Assembly (NCBI RefSeq): GCF_022829445.1
Contig: NZ_JAKSXY010000040.1
Span: forward strand, 1 to 64,000
Direction of reading: 5' to 3'
DNA length: 64,000 nucleotides
From: Methylobacterium sp. J-068
GTDB taxonomy: Bacteria; Pseudomonadota; Alphaproteobacteria; Rhizobiales; Beijerinckiaceae
The number at the start of each line of letters is the position of its first letter. Position 1 is the stretch's first letter. Under the pieces are notes generated by a model that worked only from the letters and a program-made list of their open reading frames with translations, did no database searches and had not been told where the DNA came from. Below are positions 2,896-36,101 of the stretch, piece after piece. A program made the position numbers and the translations under genes.

Positions 2896-3609
2896 ATGTC
2901 CGACGATCCGGGCCCGTCCCTGGTTCACCGGCACGCCGCCTGGGTGCGCCTGACCCACTGGCTCAACGCGGCCGCGTTCCTGGCCCTGGTCGTCAGCGGC
3001 ATCGCGATCCTGCTCGCCCTGCCGCGCCTGTTCTGGGGCGAGACCGGGGCCAACGCGGCCCCCGCCGCCTTCGAATTGCCGCTGCCGGTCAACCTCGAAC
3101 AGACGGGGTGGGGCCGCAACCTGCACTTCCTCGCCGCCTGGATCCTCGTCCTCAACGGCATCGTCTATGGCATCGTCGCCTTCGTGGGCGGCCACTTCGC
3201 GCGCGACCTCGTGCCGGATCGGGACCAGCTGACGCCGCGCCACCTCGCCCGCGAGATCGCCGACCATGCCCGCCTCCGGCCCGCGCGGGGGCGCGAGGCC
3301 CTGCGCTACAACGCCCTGCAGAAATTCGCCTATCTGGCCGTGCTGTTCGTGCTGTTTCCCCTGATGGTGCTCACCGGCCTGACCATGTCGCCGGGCGTCA
3401 CGGCGGCCTATCCGGAGCTCTTCACCCTGTTCGGCGGACGCCAGTCGGCGCGCACGCTGCACTTCCTGACCGCCTGCCTGCTCGTGCTGTTCCTCGTGGT
3501 GCACGTGGCCCAGGTCTTCGTCGGCGGGGCCGGCAACCTCATGCGCTCGATGATCACCGGGCGCTTCCGCGTTCCACCGGACCGCTCCACGGAGCCCCCC
3601 GATGCATGA
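2896..3609 (+). CDS. Cytochrome b561-type membrane subunit
   Basis: A 237-residue protein with four hydrophobic helices and the histidines typical of Ni-hydrogenase/formate-dehydrogenase type cytochrome b: HAAWVRLTHWLNA at the start, NLHFLAAW, and TLHFLTACLLVLFLVVHVAQ near the end. The family binds two b haems and passes electrons between the quinone pool and a periplasmic partner. The last 8 bases overlap the next gene, a molybdoenzyme, so this is its likely membrane electron carrier. A second copy of the same two-gene arrangement is at 30255-32056. Confidence 0.85.
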   Translation: MSDDPGPSLVHRHAAWVRLTHWLNAAAFLALVVSGIAILLALPRLFWGETGANAAPAAFELPLPVNLEQTGWGRNLHFLAAWILVLNGIVYGIVAFVGGHFARDLVPDRDQLTPRHLAREIADHARLRPARGREALRYNALQKFAYLAVLFVLFPLMVLTGLTMSPGVTAAYPELFTLFGGRQSARTLHFLTACLLVLFLVVHVAQVFVGGAGNLMRSMITGRFRVPPDRSTEPPDA

Positions 3610-4342
3610 CCTCTCGCGCCGCCGCCTCCTCGTCGGATCGGGCACGCTGCTGGGGGCCGGCCTGCTCGGCGGCTGCGAGGCGCCGGCCCTGTCGCGCCTC
3701 GCCACCCCCTACGACTGGAGCAACGGCCTCACCTTCGCGGTCCAGCGCTGGCTCCAGCGCCACCAGCCCCTGGTGCGCGAGTTCGGGCCGGAGGCGATCT
3801 CGTCGGTGTTTCCGACCATCAACACCACGGACCCCGACAACCCCGATTATCGGCGCTCGCGGGCGCTCGGCTTCTCGGACTGGAAGCTCCCCGTCGGCGG
3901 CCTCGTGGAACGGCCCGGCGCGGTCTCGCTGGCCGACCTGCGGGGCATGCCGGCCCGCACCCAGATCACCCTGCATGCCTGCGAGCAGGGCTGGTCGGCC
4001 ATCGGCCAGTGGACGGGGGTGCCCCTCGCGCACCTGCTGACCCACGTGGGACTCAAGCTGGAGGCGCGCTTCATCGTCATCCGCAGCGTCGACGGCTGGT
4101 GGGACAGCTACGATCTGTTCGACGCCCTCCACCCGCAGACGATCCTGGCCTACGGCATGAACGGCGGCGCCCTGCCGGTGGCCCACGGCGCCCCGGTCCG
4201 CCTGCGGGTGGAGCGCCAGCTCGGCTACAAGAGCCTCAAATACGTCAGCGCGATCGAGGCCGTGGAGCGGGTCGACGGCTTCGGCAAGGGCCGCGGCAGC
4301 ATGGTCGCCGAACTCGGGTTCCCCTGGTACGCGGGAATCTGA
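3602..4342 (+). CDS. Sulfite-oxidase-fold molybdopterin oxidoreductase, exported
   Basis: 246 residues. The N terminus has a twin-arginine type leader (SRRRLLVGSGTLLGAGLLGG) ending in a lipobox-like LLGGC, so it is probably exported folded, perhaps as a lipoprotein. The body is the oxidoreductase molybdopterin-binding domain seen in sulfite oxidase and MsrP. Cys in LHACEQGWSAIGQWTGVPL is the expected molybdenum ligand and RLRVERQLGYKSLKYV is typical of the cofactor-binding end. The short length, with no dimerisation domain, is nearer MsrP/YedY-like enzymes than sulfite oxidase. The substrate is unknown. It forms an operon with the cytochrome b upstream. Confidence 0.85.
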   Translation: MHDLSRRRLLVGSGTLLGAGLLGGCEAPALSRLATPYDWSNGLTFAVQRWLQRHQPLVREFGPEAISSVFPTINTTDPDNPDYRRSRALGFSDWKLPVGGLVERPGAVSLADLRGMPARTQITLHACEQGWSAIGQWTGVPLAHLLTHVGLKLEARFIVIRSVDGWWDSYDLFDALHPQTILAYGMNGGALPVAHGAPVRLRVERQLGYKSLKYVSAIEAVERVDGFGKGRGSMVAELGFPWYAGI

Positions 4343-29707: not shown

Positions 29708-30254
29708 AGTGCTCTCCTCCATGCGGCCGCAGCACGGCGCTTCCCGTCTCTCGCTCGCATCGGACCCAACCCCGGACGGGTCCGATCAAGCCTCCGACGC
29801 CTTCCCCTTCGTGTCGGACAGGGGAAGGCCTCAGTCATGAGCGCTCGTAGATGATCGTAAAATCTCACGCCAGCTTCATTGCACCGTATTGATCGATGAC
29901 ATCACCTTCGCGTGACACGTCGAATTCAAACGACGACGCAGCCTCTGCTGAACAACGCGCGCCACGAATAGAACTCGTCATCGCGATCGGACACATCACG
30001 GAACAGACCATCATCGAAGCGTTGCCGCGGGCAACCCGCTATCACAGGCACCGGCAATCACCAAGACGCGAATTGGGCCGACGCCCCGCAGTCCGGCGAA
30101 CCGCGAAATCATCTGACCCGCATCCGACTGGTCAGAATCCGATCCGACGAAGCCTGCCGGGTTCCAGCAGCGGAGTCGCGCGATGCTTGGGTGATCTTCG
30201 AGCGGCCCATGGGGCCCGTCGATGGCAGGCCGGCGCCGGCCACCGCCTCGACGC
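29708..30254. other. Intergenic region between glycan operon and molybdoenzyme
   Basis: Roughly 550 bases upstream of the five-gene operon and downstream of the second molybdoenzyme gene. The centre (about 29845-30000) is less GC-rich than the genes around it and probably contains the operon promoter. A short plus-strand frame here has poor codon use and no ribosome binding site. I see no RNA gene or clear repeat. Confidence 0.5.
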
Positions 30255-31178
30255 TCAGATGCCCGCGTACCAAGCGTAGCCCTGGTCCTCCCAGTAGCCG
30301 CCCTTGCCCTGGCCGATATCGGCGAAGCTCGCGACCACCTCGATGCGCATCACGTACTTGGCCTGCTTGTAGCCGAGGTTGCGTTCGAGCCGCAGGCGCA
30401 AGGGCGCGCCGTTCGCGATCGGAAGCGTCTCGCCGTTGAGTGCGTAGGCGAGGATGGTCTGCGGATGGAAGGCGTCGACGAGGTCGATGCTCTCGTAGAA
30501 CCGGATCGGGGCCGTGCCGTCGTCCCCGGACGCCGTATCCTCCCCCTTGCCGCTGTCGCGTCTGTCCTCGGCGCCGGCCGGGCGCCGGGTCATGTTCGGG
30601 TTGGCGCCGGTGGGTGCCGCCTCGGGCTCCGTCGTCTCCGGGTCGTCGCCGCCTTCGAGGGGGCTGGCCTGTTCCATCGTGTCGGCGCAGTGGAAGACGA
30701 TGTAGCGCGCCGCCGGCTTCAGCCTGGCCCGGGTCAGGAGGTTGGCCAGCGGCACCCCCGTCCATTGGCCGATGCAGCTCCAGCCCTCGACGCAATCGTG
30801 GCGGGTGATCTGGGTCCGGGACGGCAGCGCGCGCAGCTCGGCCAGGGACAGGCTGAACGGCGCCTCGACGAGGCCACCGATCTCCAGGTGGTAATCGGCG
30901 AACTTGCGGCGCGCCAGCGCCTTGTAGGCCTTGTCCGGCGGGTCCTCCGTTCCGTTCGGCTTGAACCAGGGCGAGATGTCGGCCGCGGTGTATTCGGGCG
31001 CGAGGGACCGTTCGGTCAGGAGCAGGCGCTGGACGAACATGTTCGCGTCTTCGCCGGTCTTGAGCGTGCGTCGGAACCACTCGACGTTGCCCAGCCGGTC
31101 GCAGGCCCCGAGCAGGGTCGCGGCGGCCGTGGCCGAAGCCCCGGCCAGGAGTGTGCGGCGGCTCGGAATCCGGCTCAT
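30255..31178 (-). CDS. Sulfite-oxidase-fold molybdopterin oxidoreductase, with acidic insertion
   Basis: 307 residues, a paralogue of the protein at 3602. The leader IPSRRTLLAGASATAAATLL followed by GAC is twin-arginine-like with a lipobox-like cysteine. Molybdenum ligand Cys is in RHDCVEGWSCIGQWTGVPLA (here DC rather than AC precedes the ligand) and LRLRLERNLGYKQAKYVMRI closes the domain. About residues 175-230 form a low-complexity, acidic insert (SPLEGGDDPETTEPEAAPTG and onwards) absent from the paralogue. It overlaps the upstream cytochrome b gene by 4 bases, so the two form a unit. The substrate is unknown; oxidised methionine is one option given the neighbour at 32127. Confidence 0.85.
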   Translation of the reverse strand: MSRIPSRRTLLAGASATAAATLLGACDRLGNVEWFRRTLKTGEDANMFVQRLLLTERSLAPEYTAADISPWFKPNGTEDPPDKAYKALARRKFADYHLEIGGLVEAPFSLSLAELRALPSRTQITRHDCVEGWSCIGQWTGVPLANLLTRARLKPAARYIVFHCADTMEQASPLEGGDDPETTEPEAAPTGANPNMTRRPAGAEDRRDSGKGEDTASGDDGTAPIRFYESIDLVDAFHPQTILAYALNGETLPIANGAPLRLRLERNLGYKQAKYVMRIEVVASFADIGQGKGGYWEDQGYAWYAGI

Positions 31179-32056
31179 GCCTCGGGCTCCCGCGCCGGGG
31201 AGGCGGGGGTGATGTCCCGCTCGATCACGAACCAGCCGGTCACCATGCCCCGCATGTTGTTCCAGAAGCCCGACAGCACGACCAGGGCGACGTGGACGAG
31301 GACGAACAGCACGAGGAGGCCGGCCACCGCGAAGTGGACCGTGCGCGCCGATTGCCGGCCATCGAAGAGCGTCAGCAGGAAGGGGAAGGCCGCGTTCATG
31401 GCCGGCGACATCGCCAGCCCCGCCAGCACCTGCACCGGCAGGAGCACGAACAGGACGAGGGCGTAGGTGAGCTTCTGGATGACGTTGTAGCGCTTGGCCT
31501 CCTCTCCATGCGGGAAGCGCAGGGTCAGGTGCTCCCGGACCGAGGCGCCGAAGTGGCGAATCTGGTCGCGCGCGGGAATCACCCGGCCCCGAAGCTGCCC
31601 GCTGAACAGGCCGTAGAGCAGGTAGGCGAGCCCGTTGAGGACGAAGGCCCAGGCGAAGAAGAAGTGCCAGGAGCGGCCGCCCGTGAGGTCTTGGTCGCCC
31701 GGCAGCGTCGCCCAAGGCGGGAAAGCGCGGTCGGCCGGCGCGCCGTTGGGGCCGGTGGAGAGCCCGAGCAGGCCGGTCGTCTCGAAGCGGCGCCCGAGGA
31801 TCGTGGTCACGCCCTTGGGCGGATCGTCCTCGGTCGAGGTCATCGCCAGGAGCGGCGTGTCGAAGGTCGAGACATTGCCCCAGTACAGGGCGGGGTGCGC
31901 GTTGAAGATCTGCAGGCCGCTCATCAGCAGGACGAGGAGGCAGACCGCGTTGACCCAGTGGGTGACGCGGATGACGAGGGGGTGCCGGAACATCCAGCGC
32001 CGCCGTTCGACTTCGCGAAAATCGGGCGCGCAACGCGTCAGGTCGGTGGGAGCCAA
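31175..32056 (-). CDS. Cytochrome b561-type membrane subunit (second copy)
   Basis: 293 residues, four or five helices. Haem-ligand histidines are expected in FRHPLVIRVTHWVNAVCLLV, GGRSWHFFFAWAFVLNGLAY and TVHFAVAGLLVLFVLVHVAL. It is longer than the copy at 2896 because of a loop (STEDDPPKGVTTILGRRFET) between helices 1 and 2. It should carry electrons between quinols and the exported molybdoenzyme whose ATG overlaps its stop. A Met-rich small protein lies 70 bases upstream on the same strand. Confidence 0.85.
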   Translation of the reverse strand: MAPTDLTRCAPDFREVERRRWMFRHPLVIRVTHWVNAVCLLVLLMSGLQIFNAHPALYWGNVSTFDTPLLAMTSTEDDPPKGVTTILGRRFETTGLLGLSTGPNGAPADRAFPPWATLPGDQDLTGGRSWHFFFAWAFVLNGLAYLLYGLFSGQLRGRVIPARDQIRHFGASVREHLTLRFPHGEEAKRYNVIQKLTYALVLFVLLPVQVLAGLAMSPAMNAAFPFLLTLFDGRQSARTVHFAVAGLLVLFVLVHVALVVLSGFWNNMRGMVTGWFVIERDITPASPAREPEA

Positions 32057-32126
32057 ACCGGGGCCTCGTCGCGAGGGCGGGAGGAGGGGTCCGGGCGGAC
32101 CCCTCCAGGGTCGGATTCGAGTCGGA

Positions 32127-32357
32127 TCACATGCGGTTCATCATCCGCTTCTTCATCATGCGGCGCTTCATCATCTGCTTCCGCATCATGCGCTTCTTCA
32201 TCATCATCCGCTCGCTGCGGTCCATGCGGACCTGCGTCACACTGGAATGATCCGTCTGCAGGCCGTTGACGGCCATGGGCGCGGCGGTGGCGGCACCGGC
32301 GCCGAGAGCCAGCGAACCGAGGATCGTGGCGGCGAGCGCGAGGGTCTTGGTCTTCAT
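32127..32357 (-). CDS. Small secreted Met/Lys/Arg-rich protein (76 aa)
   Basis: Residues 1-25 are a signal peptide (KTKTLALAATILGSLALG, cleavage after ATA). The predicted mature part is 51 residues with 14 methionines. The last 27 residues consist almost only of Met, Lys and Arg in pairs such as RMMRKQMMKRRMMKKRMM. It contains no cysteine. Such a tail is unusual; comparable Met-rich exported proteins are described as oxidant scavengers that are re-reduced by an MsrP/YedY enzyme (MrpX of Azospira). The AGGAG ribosome binding site is at 32365-32369. The cytochrome b/molybdoenzyme pair is next on the same strand. Metal (copper) binding is an alternative. Confidence 0.8.
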   Translation of the reverse strand: MKTKTLALAATILGSLALGAGAATAAPMAVNGLQTDHSSVTQVRMDRSERMMMKKRMMRKQMMKRRMMKKRMMNRM

Positions 32358-32402
32358 GAATGATCTCCTACGAAAGAAAGATTGCCTCTCCGGACCCTGA
32401 GA

Positions 32403-32428
32403 GAAGCGATGAACTTTGCCCAAGTTCC
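32403..32428 (-). promoter_or_regulatory. Possible ECF-type promoter before the Met-rich gene
   Basis: On the minus strand GGAAC (32428 to 32424) is followed after 17 bases by CTTC (32406 to 32403), about 46 bases before the start codon. GGAAC is the -35 element of many ECF sigma factors, including the alphaproteobacterial general stress factor EcfG, but the usual -10 (CGTT) is not matched well. Weak support. Confidence 0.25.
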
Positions 32429-32570
32429 TGAAAAAGATAAGAAATTTTCACCGGGCATGCTCCCGGGACACAGTTCACCGAGCGCTGAAGCGGCCCGCTC
32501 GCGCGTGAGCGCCCGTTAGGGCTCCCAAGGGGTCTCGAAGGCTCCGTACGACCGCGCGAGGCGAAAGGTT

Positions 32571-32611
32571 TCATACCGAATCCGCCATCCCGAAGGGATC
32601 AAGCGGTATGA
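32571..32611. repeat. REP-like palindromic element, copy 1
   Basis: Outer arms TCATACCG (32571-32578) and CGGTATGA (32604-32611) pair perfectly; an inner hairpin ATCCC-GAA-GGGAT is at 32587-32599. The 16-mer AATCCGCCATCCCGAA (32579-32594) recurs exactly at 47821-47836. It lies between the hybrid kinase stop and the Met-rich gene, where it may cap the 3' end of the kinase mRNA. Confidence 0.55.
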
Positions 32612-32652
32612 CGCGGTCAAGGCGCAGCGGCGTCCCTCCGCTTCGCGGGCCC

Positions 32653-35600
32653 CTACGGCGACCGGCCGGCGATCATCTCCCGGATGCGGCCCCCCAGCGT
32701 CTCGACCACGAACGGCTTCGTCAGCACGGCCATGCCGGGCTCGAGCTGTCCGTCGCCGATCACCGTGCTCTCGGCATAGCCCGTGATGAACAGCACCTTC
32801 AGGCCGGGCCGCCGCGCGCGGCCGGCATCGGCCATCTGGCGCCCGTTCATGCCGCCGGGCAGGCCCACATCGGTGATCAGCAGGTCGAGGCGCACGTCCG
32901 ATTGCAGCACCTTCAGGCCCGAGGCGCTGTCGGCCGCCTCGATGGTGGTGTAGCCGAGTTCCTCCAGCACCTCCGTCACCAGCATGCGCACGGTCGGCTC
33001 GTCGTCGACGACCAGGACCGTCTCGCCGCGTCCTGCCCGGGAGGGCTCCGTCGGCCCGTCGAGCGGAGCGTCCTCGCCCACCGCGCGCCGGGTGCGGGGC
33101 AGGTACAGGCACACCGTCGTGCCCCGGCCGACCTCGGAATCGATGCGGACCTGGCCACCCGATTGCTGGGCGAAGCCGTAGATCATCGAGAGGCCGAGCC
33201 CGGTGCCCTGCCCGAGCGGCTTGGTGGTGAAGAACGGGTCGAACGCCTTGGCGACCACGTCCGGGCTCATGCCGGTGCCGGTATCGGTCACGCGGAGGGC
33301 GAGGTACGGCCCGGCGGGGAGGTCGTGCTCCCGGTCGAGCCAAAGGTTGGCGGTCTCGATGGTGATGCGCCCGCCCGCCGGCATCGCGTCGCGCGCGTTG
33401 ATGCAGAGGTTCAGGAGCGCGTTCTCCAGTTGCGGCGGATCGACCAATGTGGGCCAGAGCCCGGCGGCGCCGACGACCTCGACCGCGATGGCCGGCCCGA
33501 CCGTGCGCCGGATCAGCTCCTCCATCCCGCTCACGAGGGCGTCCACCTGGGTCGGCTTCGGGTCGAGGGTCTGGCGGCGCGAGAAGGCGAGCAGGCGGTG
33601 CGTCAGGGCGGCGGCGCGCTTGGCCGCCCCTTGCGCGGCCGCCATGTAGCGCTCGACATCGCCGAACCGGCCCTGCTGCATGCGGGACTGCATCAGTTCC
33701 AGCGAACCCGAGATGCCGGCCAGCAGGTTGTTGAAGTCGTGGGCGAGGCCGCCGGTGAGCTGGCCCACCGCCTCCATCTTCTGCGACTGGCGCAGCTGCT
33801 CTTCCAGAAGCGCCTTCGCCTCGGCGGCCTCCCGCTCGCCCGTGATGTCGCGCCCGACGCCCGTCAGGCGCGCGCCGCCGGGCTCCGGCGCCAGTTTCCA
33901 GGCGATCCAGCGCCAGGTCCCGTCCGCGGCCCGGATCCGGTTCTCGACCCGGACCGGCCGCCCGGAGGCACGCATGTCGCGGAGCGCCTCCGTCACGACC
34001 GGGCGGTCGTCGGGATGGATGATCTCCACGTAGGGACGGGTCAGCAGCGTCGCCTCGTCATGGCCGAGCAGGGCCGTCCATGACGGGCTGACCCGCCGGA
34101 GGCGACCGTCGTAATCGGCGTTGACGAGGAGATCCTCGCTGAGGTCCCAGAGGCGGTCGCGCTCGGCCGCCAGCCCGGCCTCGGCGTCGCGCTGGGCGGT
34201 GACGTCCTGCACGAAGACGTAGAAGCCGTCGACCGCCCCTCGGCCGTCCCGGCGCGGGGTGTAGCGGATGTCGGCGATGCGGCGGCGGCCGTCCGGCCAG
34301 GGCCAGGGCAGGTCCATGCGTACGGCCTCGCCGGCCAGGGCCCGCTCGATATACGGCAGCCGCACCCGGAAGCCCTGCTCGCTCACGATCTCGCGGATCG
34401 TCCGGCCGATGACGGCCTCGGGATCGCGGTCGAACCACTCGCGATAGGCGCCGTTGGCGAACCGGTAGGTCAGGCTGCGGTCGACGAAGGACACCAGCAG
34501 GGGCAGCGCATCGGCCACGAGGCGCAGGTCGGCCTCGCTCGCGCGGCGGGCCTCCTCGGCCCGGATGCGGGCGGTCTCGTCGCGGGCGACCTTGAGGAAG
34601 CCGCGCGGCCGGCCCTGCGCGTCGGGCGGCAGCGGATGCACCGACCCGTCCATGAAGACGCGCCGGCCCTCCTTCGTGAGGTGCCAGTGCGCGTCGGTGG
34701 CCGAGCCCGTCCGTGCCGCCGTCGCGAGTTCGTGCGCGTCCGCCCCCCGCGCGCGGTCCTCGGGCGTGAAGATCAGGCCGAAGGGCCGCCCCACCGCCTC
34801 CGGGGCGGACCAGCCGAACGCCGCCTCGGCGCCGGCCGACCAGCTCGTGATGATCCCGGCGGTGTCGGTCGTGAGGATGGCGTGGTCCTTGGCGCCCTCG
34901 ATCACGAGGCGCAGGCGCTCCTCGCTCTCACGCAGCGCGGCCTCGGCGCGCTTGCGGTCGTCCACGTCCTCGACGACGCCGTACCAGCGCAGGATCGCGC
35001 CGGAGGCGTCCCGGCGCGGATAGGCGCGGGCCCGCATCCAGCGATACTCGCCCGTGCCCGCGATGTGGATGCGGTAGTCGACGTCCACGGGCTCGCCGGA
35101 GGCGAGCCGGGCCGCGAACACCGCCAGGGTCGGTTCCAGGTCGTCGGGATGGAGCGGCTTGGTCCAGCCGGTGCCGTCCGGCTCGCCCGGGGCCTGCCCC
35201 GTGAGTTCGAGCCAGCGGGGCGAGTAGGAGACGATGTTGCCCTGCGGGTCGGCCGTCCAGGGCACCTGGGGGTTCAACTCGACCGTGTGGCGGAGATGGT
35301 CCTCGCTCTCGTGCCGGGCCGCCTCGCCCAGGACGCTGGCGGTGGTCTCGTTCGTGAGGATGAACAGGCCGGCGACGCGGCCCTCGCCGTCGAGGACGCG
35401 CGAGTAGGAGAACGTGAACCAGGTATCGGCGGCGCCCCGGTCGGTATCGAGCTTCCAGGGCAGGTTCTCGAAGCGGTGGCTGCGGCCCGCGAAGGCATCG
35501 TCGATGATGGGCTTGGCCTGCGCCCAGCCATCGGCCCAGACCACGTCGAAGCGCTCGCCCATGGCCCAGGCGAGGCGCGGGCCCAGCAGCGGGACGTAGG

Positions 35601-35844
35601 TGTCGTTGAAGAAGAAGTGGAGGTCCGGACCCCAGGCGAGGATCATCGATTCCGGCGAGTTCAGCACGAGGCTGAGCGCCGTGCGGAACGCCACGGGCCA
35701 GGTCTCCGGCGGTCCGAGGGGATGGTCCGACCAGTCGCGCGCGCGGATCAGGCGGGCGGCCTCGCCGCCGCCCGACAGGAAGGCCAGGGTGTCGCCCGGC
35801 AGGAAGGAGACGTCGCTCAACGTAGCGCGCCTCGCGAGGGACAT
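32653..35844 (-). CDS. Soluble hybrid histidine kinase with five PAS domains and a receiver
   Basis: 1063 residues without obvious membrane helices. Five PAS-type repeats are visible: around SPESMILAWGPDLHFFFNDT, PQVPWTADPQGNIVSYSPRW, ILTTDTAGIITSWSAGAEAA, LPLLVSFVDRSLTYRFANGA and DLLVNADYDGRLRRVSPSW. Then the HisKA domain (GGLAHDFNNLLAGI, phospho-His about 702), the ATPase domain with N box ALLNLCINARDAMP, G boxes and DPFFTTKPLGQGTGLGLSM, and a C-terminal receiver domain (VLVVDDEPTVRM, phospho-Asp about 991 in LLITDVGLPGG). AHDFNNLL kinases of this class are common in Rhizobiales. No response regulator gene is adjacent. Signal unknown. Confidence 0.9.
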   Translation of the reverse strand: MSLARRATLSDVSFLPGDTLAFLSGGGEAARLIRARDWSDHPLGPPETWPVAFRTALSLVLNSPESMILAWGPDLHFFFNDTYVPLLGPRLAWAMGERFDVVWADGWAQAKPIIDDAFAGRSHRFENLPWKLDTDRGAADTWFTFSYSRVLDGEGRVAGLFILTNETTASVLGEAARHESEDHLRHTVELNPQVPWTADPQGNIVSYSPRWLELTGQAPGEPDGTGWTKPLHPDDLEPTLAVFAARLASGEPVDVDYRIHIAGTGEYRWMRARAYPRRDASGAILRWYGVVEDVDDRKRAEAALRESEERLRLVIEGAKDHAILTTDTAGIITSWSAGAEAAFGWSAPEAVGRPFGLIFTPEDRARGADAHELATAARTGSATDAHWHLTKEGRRVFMDGSVHPLPPDAQGRPRGFLKVARDETARIRAEEARRASEADLRLVADALPLLVSFVDRSLTYRFANGAYREWFDRDPEAVIGRTIREIVSEQGFRVRLPYIERALAGEAVRMDLPWPWPDGRRRIADIRYTPRRDGRGAVDGFYVFVQDVTAQRDAEAGLAAERDRLWDLSEDLLVNADYDGRLRRVSPSWTALLGHDEATLLTRPYVEIIHPDDRPVVTEALRDMRASGRPVRVENRIRAADGTWRWIAWKLAPEPGGARLTGVGRDITGEREAAEAKALLEEQLRQSQKMEAVGQLTGGLAHDFNNLLAGISGSLELMQSRMQQGRFGDVERYMAAAQGAAKRAAALTHRLLAFSRRQTLDPKPTQVDALVSGMEELIRRTVGPAIAVEVVGAAGLWPTLVDPPQLENALLNLCINARDAMPAGGRITIETANLWLDREHDLPAGPYLALRVTDTGTGMSPDVVAKAFDPFFTTKPLGQGTGLGLSMIYGFAQQSGGQVRIDSEVGRGTTVCLYLPRTRRAVGEDAPLDGPTEPSRAGRGETVLVVDDEPTVRMLVTEVLEELGYTTIEAADSASGLKVLQSDVRLDLLITDVGLPGGMNGRQMADAGRARRPGLKVLFITGYAESTVIGDGQLEPGMAVLTKPFVVETLGGRIREMIAGRSP

Positions 35845-36101
35845 CGGGCGAGCGGGGCGGGGCCTCGGCCGTCGCGGACGCTTCGAAATGCCCTCATGCC
35901 GTCGTGTCGTCCCGAAGCGAGCGGCGGTCGACCATGGCGAGGGGTTCGGGGCTCGGCGAGAGGGCGGGGGGCATGCGGGCGTTTGCCTCGTACGGTGGGG
36001 GCACACAACGCGACGACCCGCCGCAGAACACGGCTTGCCCGACCGGACCCGCTCCCCGCAAGGCTCGTGACGGCCCGGTCGCCGCGTCCGGGCCGTTCGC
36101 C

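Follow-up and report, generated by a model that had tools for sequence, protein, structure and literature searches.

Why would a bacterium export a protein of only 76 residues, much of it methionine, lysine and arginine, and keep its gene beside those of a membrane cytochrome and a molybdoenzyme? The question is raised by three minus-strand genes at 30255..32357 of the window analysed here, the first 64,000 nucleotides of contig NZ_JAKSXY010000040.1 of Methylobacterium sp. J-068 (assembly GCF_022829445.1). Most likely, the cassette exports a tiny, positively charged, methionine-packed protein as an oxidant sponge, and would represent a rewired, charge-flipped version of a known system. More precisely, the three genes are read, with a probability of roughly 70%, as a renewable methionine sink of the cell envelope, in which the peptide would scavenge oxidants and be repaired by a quinol-fed, lipid-anchored reductase. 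The gene order, synteny, export signals, predicted fold, promoter and hairpin on which this reading draws come from the sequence; methionine sulfoxide reduction, quinol feeding and scavenging are carried over from relatives.

Direct reading and translation of the open reading frames (ORFs) place the Met-rich, polybasic secreted peptide gene at 32127..32357 (minus strand, 76 amino acids), followed after a gap of 70 bases by a membrane cytochrome b561 gene at 31175..32056 (minus strand, TTG start, 293 amino acids, PF01292 at 2.4e-24) and, with a 4-base overlap, by an MsrP-like molybdoenzyme gene at 30255..31178 (minus strand, 307 amino acids, PF00174 at 1.1e-30). A preliminary description of the window had given three minus-strand genes with these spacings and 14 Met in about 51 mature residues, all of which held to the base. 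A signal peptide (residues 1-25; 32283..32357, minus strand), whose cut after ATA was judged by eye, leaves the last 51 residues with their 14 Met, and analysis of Met spacing resolves the end of the protein into a tail of pentapeptide period, MMMKKR-MMRKQ-MMKRR-MMKKR-MMNRM (residues 51-76; 32130..32207, minus strand). With a Met-rich ORF defined as one of 35-200 amino acids holding at least 8 Met and at least 10% Met, the cassette peptide is the only such ORF in the window.

The preliminary description had set recurrence of the three-gene order in related genomes as a check beforehand, and the order does recur. Among the best 80 of 592 loci found by a molybdoenzyme scan of named genomes, 52 have a Met-rich secreted peptide alongside (32 type I, 9 type II and 11 MXKDX), and in 79 the cytochrome gene lies upstream of the molybdoenzyme gene, the exception (L057) being a contig end. 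The 678,580 bases of these loci contain 51 Met-rich ORFs, and 49 of them stop 49-161 bases short of the cytochrome start. Type I peptides are basic and MMKKR-like, and their number rises to 34 when the window cassette and its twin in the same genome are added; type II peptides are QGMQP...KKMKK-like and occur in Methylorubrum and Methylobacterium; the MXKDX loci belong to Agrobacterium, Rhizobium, Neorhizobium, Mycoplana, Kaistia, Filomicrobium and one other Rhizobiales. A search with the peptide itself gave 126 relatives at E <= 0.01, and in the best 120 of these all that are named by organism come from Methylobacterium or Methylorubrum, except one Oxalobacteraceae metagenome protein. At E <= 1e-10 the peptide is found in 59 of 111 genomes of the genus, in up to six copies, and the cytochrome adjoins it in 24 of 29 loci checked (the L155 cytochrome is a fragment, and the L156 sequence stops 334 bases past the peptide). 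Thirteen of the 14 Methylobacterium genomes with a peptide-less listed locus carry peptide relatives elsewhere (two only at E of about 4e-5), as against none of five such genomes in other genera. Type I cassettes also occur on plasmids of Methylorubrum extorquens and Methylobacterium radiotolerans, among them pME152 of M. extorquens ATCC 55366; both peptides read as type I, and the three genes bear the annotations hypothetical protein, cytochrome b/b6 and molybdopterin-binding protein. Two further peptide relatives (L117, L118) have an in-frame stop codon within the matched stretch and are possibly decayed copies.

The genome itself (5.1 Mb in 128 contigs) holds several versions of these genes. 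A second cassette, the twin, is divided by a contig end (end of contig C81, start of C41) and shares 78% identity with the window copy in the peptide, 84% in the cytochrome and 77% in the enzyme. The third peptide relative is an orphan on contig C85, an MRMERRMERRMMHRR... peptide rich in Met, Arg and His (L005 6464-6709) that by eye follows a PhoH-like ORF; the 13 kb around it hold no cytochrome or molybdoenzyme relative. Three more cytochrome-molybdoenzyme pairs lie at 2923-4342 of the window and on contigs C113 and C31, and no Met-rich peptide was found near them within the stretches examined around each. A single canonical MsrP is encoded on contig C90 (426 bits).

Measured against shuffled residues, a Met spacing of five is in strong excess in type I (z 22) and MXKDX (z 14) peptides; type II peptides (z 1.7 at five, 3.6 at four) have no clear period, and the C85 orphan reaches z 2.5. 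In aligned register, MXKDX reads M-K-K-D-(A/S/T) and type I reads M-K-K-R-M, and we infer that type I is an MXKDX-like repeat in which Asp was replaced by Arg and a second Met was gained. The mature net charge runs from +9 to +14 in type I, +5 to +12 in type II and -7 to +8 in MXKDX peptides, with about +12 for the repeat peptide of the Methylobacterium branch. No sequence model unites the type I and MXKDX peptides, and no Pfam or NCBIfam family matches the window peptide above its cut-off. The MXKDX model TIGR02953 (cut-off 41 bits) matches neither the window peptide nor five further Methylobacteriaceae peptides, two of them paralogs from the same genome; it does match the four Rhizobiales peptides tried (L105, L090, L099 and L084; 41.5-74.2 bits, one passing by half a bit). 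Among the matches listed, three relatives carry UniRef names that start with 'Pentapeptide M...' or read 'Pentapeptide MXKDX repeat'.

The preliminary description had also taken the molybdoenzyme for a sulfite-oxidase-fold protein akin to YedY/MsrP, and E. coli MsrP/YedY (1xdq, 1xdy) proved to be both its best solved relative and its fold match. The AlphaFold model (mean predicted local distance difference test score, pLDDT, 77; predicted template modelling score 0.67) matches 1xdy and 1xdq with a Foldseek E of about 2e-13, at template modelling scores of only 0.40-0.51. A sulfite-oxidase fold combined with a CVE(A/G)WS Mo-Cys site was taken to define likeness to MsrP, and the enzyme has both. 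Its predicted Mo ligand is Cys129 in CVEGWS (codon 30792..30794, minus strand), with C129, G132, W133 and S134 invariant in 85 of 85 sequences; the corresponding site is CVEAWS in the genome's canonical MsrP and CAGNRR in its sulfite-oxidase-type gene.

Export of the enzyme would follow the twin-arginine translocation (Tat) route. Pattern matching and sequence comparison point to a Tat signal with lipobox (R7 R8 ... L-G-A-C26, with Asp at +2; 31101..31178, minus strand), in which R7, R8 and C26 are present in all 85 molybdoenzymes and Asp27 in 81, and 84 of the 85 match the combined pattern; the canonical MsrP of the genome is without a lipobox. By the E. coli Lol rule, Asp at +2 marks lipoproteins retained in the inner membrane, and application of this rule predicts an inner-membrane lipoprotein. 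Together with its partner, the enzyme points to a Tat-lipoprotein, b561-coupled, MsrP-like subfamily separate from MsrPQ.

A second peculiarity of the enzyme is an acidic disordered insert (residues 175-219; 30522..30656, minus strand), the sole segment of at least 3 residues with pLDDT below 50; the whole loop spans 64 amino acids with a net charge of -9. Loops of 29-82 residues, always net acidic, are found in the Methylobacterium and Methylorubrum enzymes of the 80 loci, in the window enzyme and its twin, and in one Lichenifustis enzyme; the remaining enzymes, including those of Microvirga and of the genome's three other pairs, have only 5-16 residues there. Type III enzymes, from Methylobacterium loci without an adjacent peptide, retain the insert. 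On a quick tree built without the insert columns, in which 37 of 81 inner branches are weak, the fewest changes that explain the insert number one, and a loop of about 50 residues was apparently gained once. That tree places all 34 type I enzymes together in a single starred set of 37, whose other members are L059 (type II), L037 and L057.

The cytochrome scores 86.6 bits against PF01292 (gathering threshold 30.1), and its His 33, 131, 176, 241 and 255 are invariant in 79 of 79 sequences, as expected of a two-haem b561. Its TTG start is supported by the 32 type I relatives, all of which have TTG (25) or GTG (7) at the aligned codon. No match at E <= 1 was listed to PF01794, which we take to be the ferric-reductase-like family of MsrQ.

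Several known systems bear on function. In Azospira suillum, MrpX-YedY-YedZ is described in papers citing Melnyk 2015 as a periplasmic Met-rich peptide that serves as a hypochlorite sink and is recycled by a YedY-type enzyme; by this description, it resembles the role proposed here. As far as the available text of the report goes (PMC8315932), Brucella melitensis bcrXQP is induced by hypochlorous acid (HOCl) and confers resistance to it, and its exported Met-rich pentapeptide-repeat protein, membrane partner and YedY-like enzyme form one operon like the window cassette, with sink and repair proposed there too and control by BcrS/AbcS. Unlike the window, BcrXQP combines MXKDX repeats, an adjacent SigF-type sigma factor (ECF16) and HOCl induction; the window has M-K-K-R-M repeats, a GGAAC element and the acidic insert, and NrsF was not found alongside. 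In uropathogenic E. coli (UPEC), the accessible portion of the source (PMC8550376) reports poorer growth with tert-butyl hydroperoxide for mutants in c3566 and c3567, which adjoin the Met-rich peptide gene c3568. That cassette likewise groups a partner annotated 'cytochrome B', an MsrP-like enzyme and a Met-rich peptide in defence against reactive oxygen species, a likeness by description; it differs in its two-component control. E. coli MsrPQ shares the MsrP fold and the CVE(A/G)WS site with the window, which differs in its Tat-lipoprotein signal, its PF01292 partner in place of the ferric-reductase-type MsrQ and an MsrP score below cut-off.

The closest comparison is offered by the MXKDX cassettes of Rhizobiales (TIGR02953, PF01292 and PF00174 with an extracytoplasmic function (ECF) sigma factor and NrsF), which share the gene order, the Tat lipobox and the intercistronic hairpin (9/11) and have a molybdoenzyme about 50% identical to that of the window. 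In the R. etli cassette, too, the ECF sigma factor and NrsF lie alongside. These cassettes differ in their peptide nearer neutrality, their lack of the insert and their promoter. An exported Met-rich peptide adjoining a b-type membrane protein and a YedY-like enzyme is the MrpX/BcrX-Msr layout, and the window cassette is, by its sequence, a variant of these systems. The claim of an analogous but distinct system stood in part: the MsrP-like repair context was borne out by the C31 pair beside MsrA, MsrB and DsbD, but the b561-type donor, offered as the mark of distinctness, is not new, because a PF01292 partner is present in the two Rhizobium MXKDX cassettes tested, and the UPEC partner is a 'cytochrome B' according to the part of that report available. 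What is new is the Methylobacterium branch, with its M-K-K-R-M repeats, acidic loop, GGAAC element and covarying hairpin between the peptide and enzyme genes, and with no SigF/NrsF genes or SigF-type promoter found alongside. Beyond the preliminary description, the analysis adds the Tat-lipoprotein signal, the loop, the GGAAC promoter, the intercistronic hairpin, the pentapeptide period that the peptide has in common with MXKDX, and the presence of several copies.

The strongest tie of the pair to methionine sulfoxide repair within this genome is the C31 locus (L025 548-5678, L170), where NrsF, DsbD, MsrB (SelR), MsrA (PMSR), cytochrome b561 and molybdoenzyme genes stand in a row, an apparent island of envelope methionine sulfoxide repair. 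By eye, MsrA and MsrB of this row appear to be exported. This island, taken with the Brucella, UPEC and Azospira systems, makes sink plus repair the likeliest function. Briefly, the roughly 14 methionines of the exported peptide would react with strong oxidants such as hypohalous acids, singlet oxygen and peroxides, and the molybdoenzyme, exported by Tat and held by its lipid anchor on the outer face of the inner membrane, would turn the resulting methionine sulfoxides of the peptide, and probably those of other envelope proteins, back into methionine by means of electrons that pass from quinol through cytochrome b561. The oxidant may differ from HOCl, and singlet oxygen may suit a leaf-dwelling Methylobacterium; in Bradyrhizobium, EcfF mutants are singlet-oxygen sensitive and the EcfF regulon includes Msr genes, according to the available part of the report (PMC3420878).

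Expression of the cassette would be switched on by a stress sigma factor of the ECF type, for which EcfG, which governs the general stress response, is a possible candidate. An ECF-type promoter-like GGAAC-N16-GCTT lies at 32404..32428 (minus strand), its GGAAC beginning 71 bases before the peptide start codon. In the window alone this pattern is no rarer than chance (2 found, 3.0 expected), and only its conserved position across loci counts: 32 of the 34 type I loci have GGAAC at -69 to -73 from the peptide ATG (mean of mononucleotide shuffles 2.4), and the pattern GGAAC-N16/17-N-[CGT]TT occurs in 32 of 34, as against 0/34 at 220-330 bases upstream and 0/34 on the opposite strand. The letters at N16-17 are TGTT-, TCTT- or GCTT-like, the -10 being variable, with TGTT commonest at N16 and TCTT at N17. 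The MXKDX cassettes carry instead GTAAC-N-CGA (7/11), similar to the Caulobacter SigF motif as given in the available text (PMC3511200), and have a SigF-like ECF gene with NrsF beside 9 of 11 loci. The GTAAC motif was found in 0 of 34 type I loci, neither motif in type II loci, and NrsF beside 0/32 type I and 0/9 type II loci (up to 4 kb on each side, with six type I loci shorter). A distant ECF sigma gene, about 30% identical, lies within the flank of four type I loci, and two NrsF genes elsewhere in the genome mean that SigF/NrsF control may act in trans. Simple scans of the cassette found no sigma-70-like site and only two terminator-like matches, which are one stem at 32384-32407, upstream of the peptide, and lie near the shuffled mean of 1.4.

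The balance of peptide to enzyme may be set after transcription begins. Directly past the peptide stop, in the gap before the cytochrome gene, lies a GC-rich stem-loop, GGAGGGGTCC-GCCC-GGACCCCTCC (32083..32106, minus strand), identified by stem conservation and covariation. A stem of at least 9 bp, with G-U allowed, occurs in 46 of 54 loci (28/34 type I, 9/9 type II, 9/11 MXKDX), compared with 7-10% of dinucleotide shuffles and with 7 of 54 loci (5, 2 and 0 by group) in a 75-base stretch just ahead of the peptide gene. Its sequence varies between groups. Within 30 type I sequences, 7 of 10 pairs have changed on both sides, and covariation reaches 0.346 against 0.164 for shuffles and 0.172 for the best slid position, although kinship alone can beat shuffles and the structure was derived from the same sequences. 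Since most stems, by eye, have no T-tract after them, we read the hairpin as a putative attenuator or 3' stabiliser that would yield more peptide than enzyme. Rfam gave no match over 29800-33000.

A bolder version of the sink-and-repair reading, tentative and on balance doubtful, concerns the Methylobacterium/Methylorubrum branch. Here, the free sink would have become a shield held electrostatically on the anionic outer face of the inner membrane through the replacement of Asp by Arg or Lys and the second Met (about +12), the new acidic loop of the lipid-anchored enzyme would capture the peptide and re-reduce it with quinol electrons, control would belong to general stress rather than to hypochlorite specifically, and the ratio would be set by the hairpin. 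As a hypothesis only, the positive charge might hold the peptide either at the membrane or on the acidic loop. Charge pairing of peptide and insert was rejected as proof of docking: across 54 cassettes the Spearman coefficient is -0.53, but within type I it is -0.09 (p 0.59, n=35), with -0.69 within type II (p 0.04, n=9) and -0.35 within MXKDX (p 0.32, n=10), the Agrobacterium MXKDX locus L096 being counted in type I. Because the insert needs one change on the tree, the cross-group association amounts to one evolutionary event that is not replicated.

Several observations weigh against a renewable sink as set out above. The enzyme reaches only 89.6 bits against the MsrP equivalog NF003767 (cut-off 207 bits); in 28 of the 80 loci no peptide was detected adjacent to the enzyme (L037 and L057 are cut by contig ends); and, conversely, the peptides of L140, L141, L160 and L162 have no cytochrome in the 1.5 kb downstream, and the C85 peptide of the same genome stands without a pair. 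Confidence is slightly reduced because the two peptides closest to that of the window (L140 and L141, 92% identical) lack the enzyme pair. Docking of the peptide on the insert lacks co-variation support within type I. The GGAAC element fits EcfG sites but equally RpoE-type ones, the available parts of the sources giving GGAAC-N17-20-GTT for EcfG in Sphingomonas melonis and GGAACTT for the -35 of E. coli RpoE. In addition, as NrsF, the partner of the HOCl-responsive sigma factor elsewhere, was not found beside the Methylobacterium cassettes, HOCl need not be the signal.

Metal handling provides an alternative, though an unlikely one, in which the peptide would buffer Cu(I) and Ag(I) in the periplasm and the pair would repair methionines oxidised in metal stress. 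Met-rich export peptides can bind Cu(I), a general property that favours this account, as do a relative of the pair near cueR and a heavy-metal P-type ATPase on a Paraburkholderia fungorum plasmid (L139) and a permease-like ORF with a His-rich tail, recognised by eye about 1.2 kb before the twin peptide gene (L004 5027-6181). Caulobacter sigF, which controls a YedY-like gene, also responds to heavy metals in the part of the report available (PMC3511200). Against these points, inspection by eye revealed no copper gene next to the window cassette, the net charge of +12 around the Met pairs should disfavour cation binding, and the homologous C31 pair adjoins MsrA/MsrB, not copper genes.

It is decidedly unlikely that a different substrate (sulfite, some other S- or N-oxide, or methionine sulfoxide of the envelope in general) is the main target of the molybdoenzyme, with the peptide as a passenger or chaperone-like cationic protein. 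The fold is common to sulfite dehydrogenases, and both the peptide-less enzyme loci, including the three further pairs of this genome, and the pair-less peptides would be accommodated; however, the active site is that of MsrP rather than the CAGNRR of the sulfite-oxidase-type gene, the SorA and SorT model scores are far under cut-off, and peptide and pair are linked in several parts of the tree. Sulfite oxidase as the main activity is rated low on account of the CVEGWS site. That the peptide is a cationic envelope stabiliser or antimicrobial, active on membranes or binding polyanions, with incidental methionines, is very improbable, for although the peptide is strongly basic, with basic residues as numerous as Met, and has copies without the pair, the Met spacing of five is common to basic type I and near-neutral MXKDX peptides while their charge differs (type II having no clear period), and an MsrP-like enzyme is frequently alongside.

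The Methylobacterium branch has a wider interest. Sacrificial methionine sinks are described for only three organisms in the literature searched, as far as the accessible parts of these papers go, and that search, in which few subscription journals were covered, found no publication on the Methylobacterium peptide. The reworked peptide is present in about half of the examined genomes of the genus, mostly in cassettes unlike those of Rhizobiales in charge, enzyme and promoter. The two lineages offer a natural comparison of near-neutral with strongly basic peptide, of insert with none and of SigF with GGAAC promoter, which bears on whether these peptides act as generic sponges for oxidants or as substrates dedicated to the neighbouring reductase.

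Aside from the cassette, the window holds a diverged second cytochrome b561 and molybdoenzyme pair at 2923..4342 (plus strand), about 26 kb away and without peptide or insert, whose enzyme forms a very long branch on the tree. The strand that carries the cassette also encodes, immediately upstream of it at 32653-36000, a hybrid histidine kinase that has a receiver domain and several PAS domains; it was rejected as the type I controller and is not a fixed partner, because relatives occur in only 10 of 32 type I loci, where their position varies, and just four of these relatives reach 50% identity. By eye, a response-regulator-like gene lies near the L140 (334-621) and L141 (651-938) peptides, and in several of the pairs without an adjacent peptide (L060-L082) the upstream sequence looks antisense to a gene resembling that of aspartate carbamoyltransferase. 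Plasmids of E. coli and Klebsiella (records H59-H67) repeatedly encode small molybdopterin-dependent oxidoreductases that share about 34% identity with the window enzyme, with matches in 59 Escherichia and 16 Klebsiella records.

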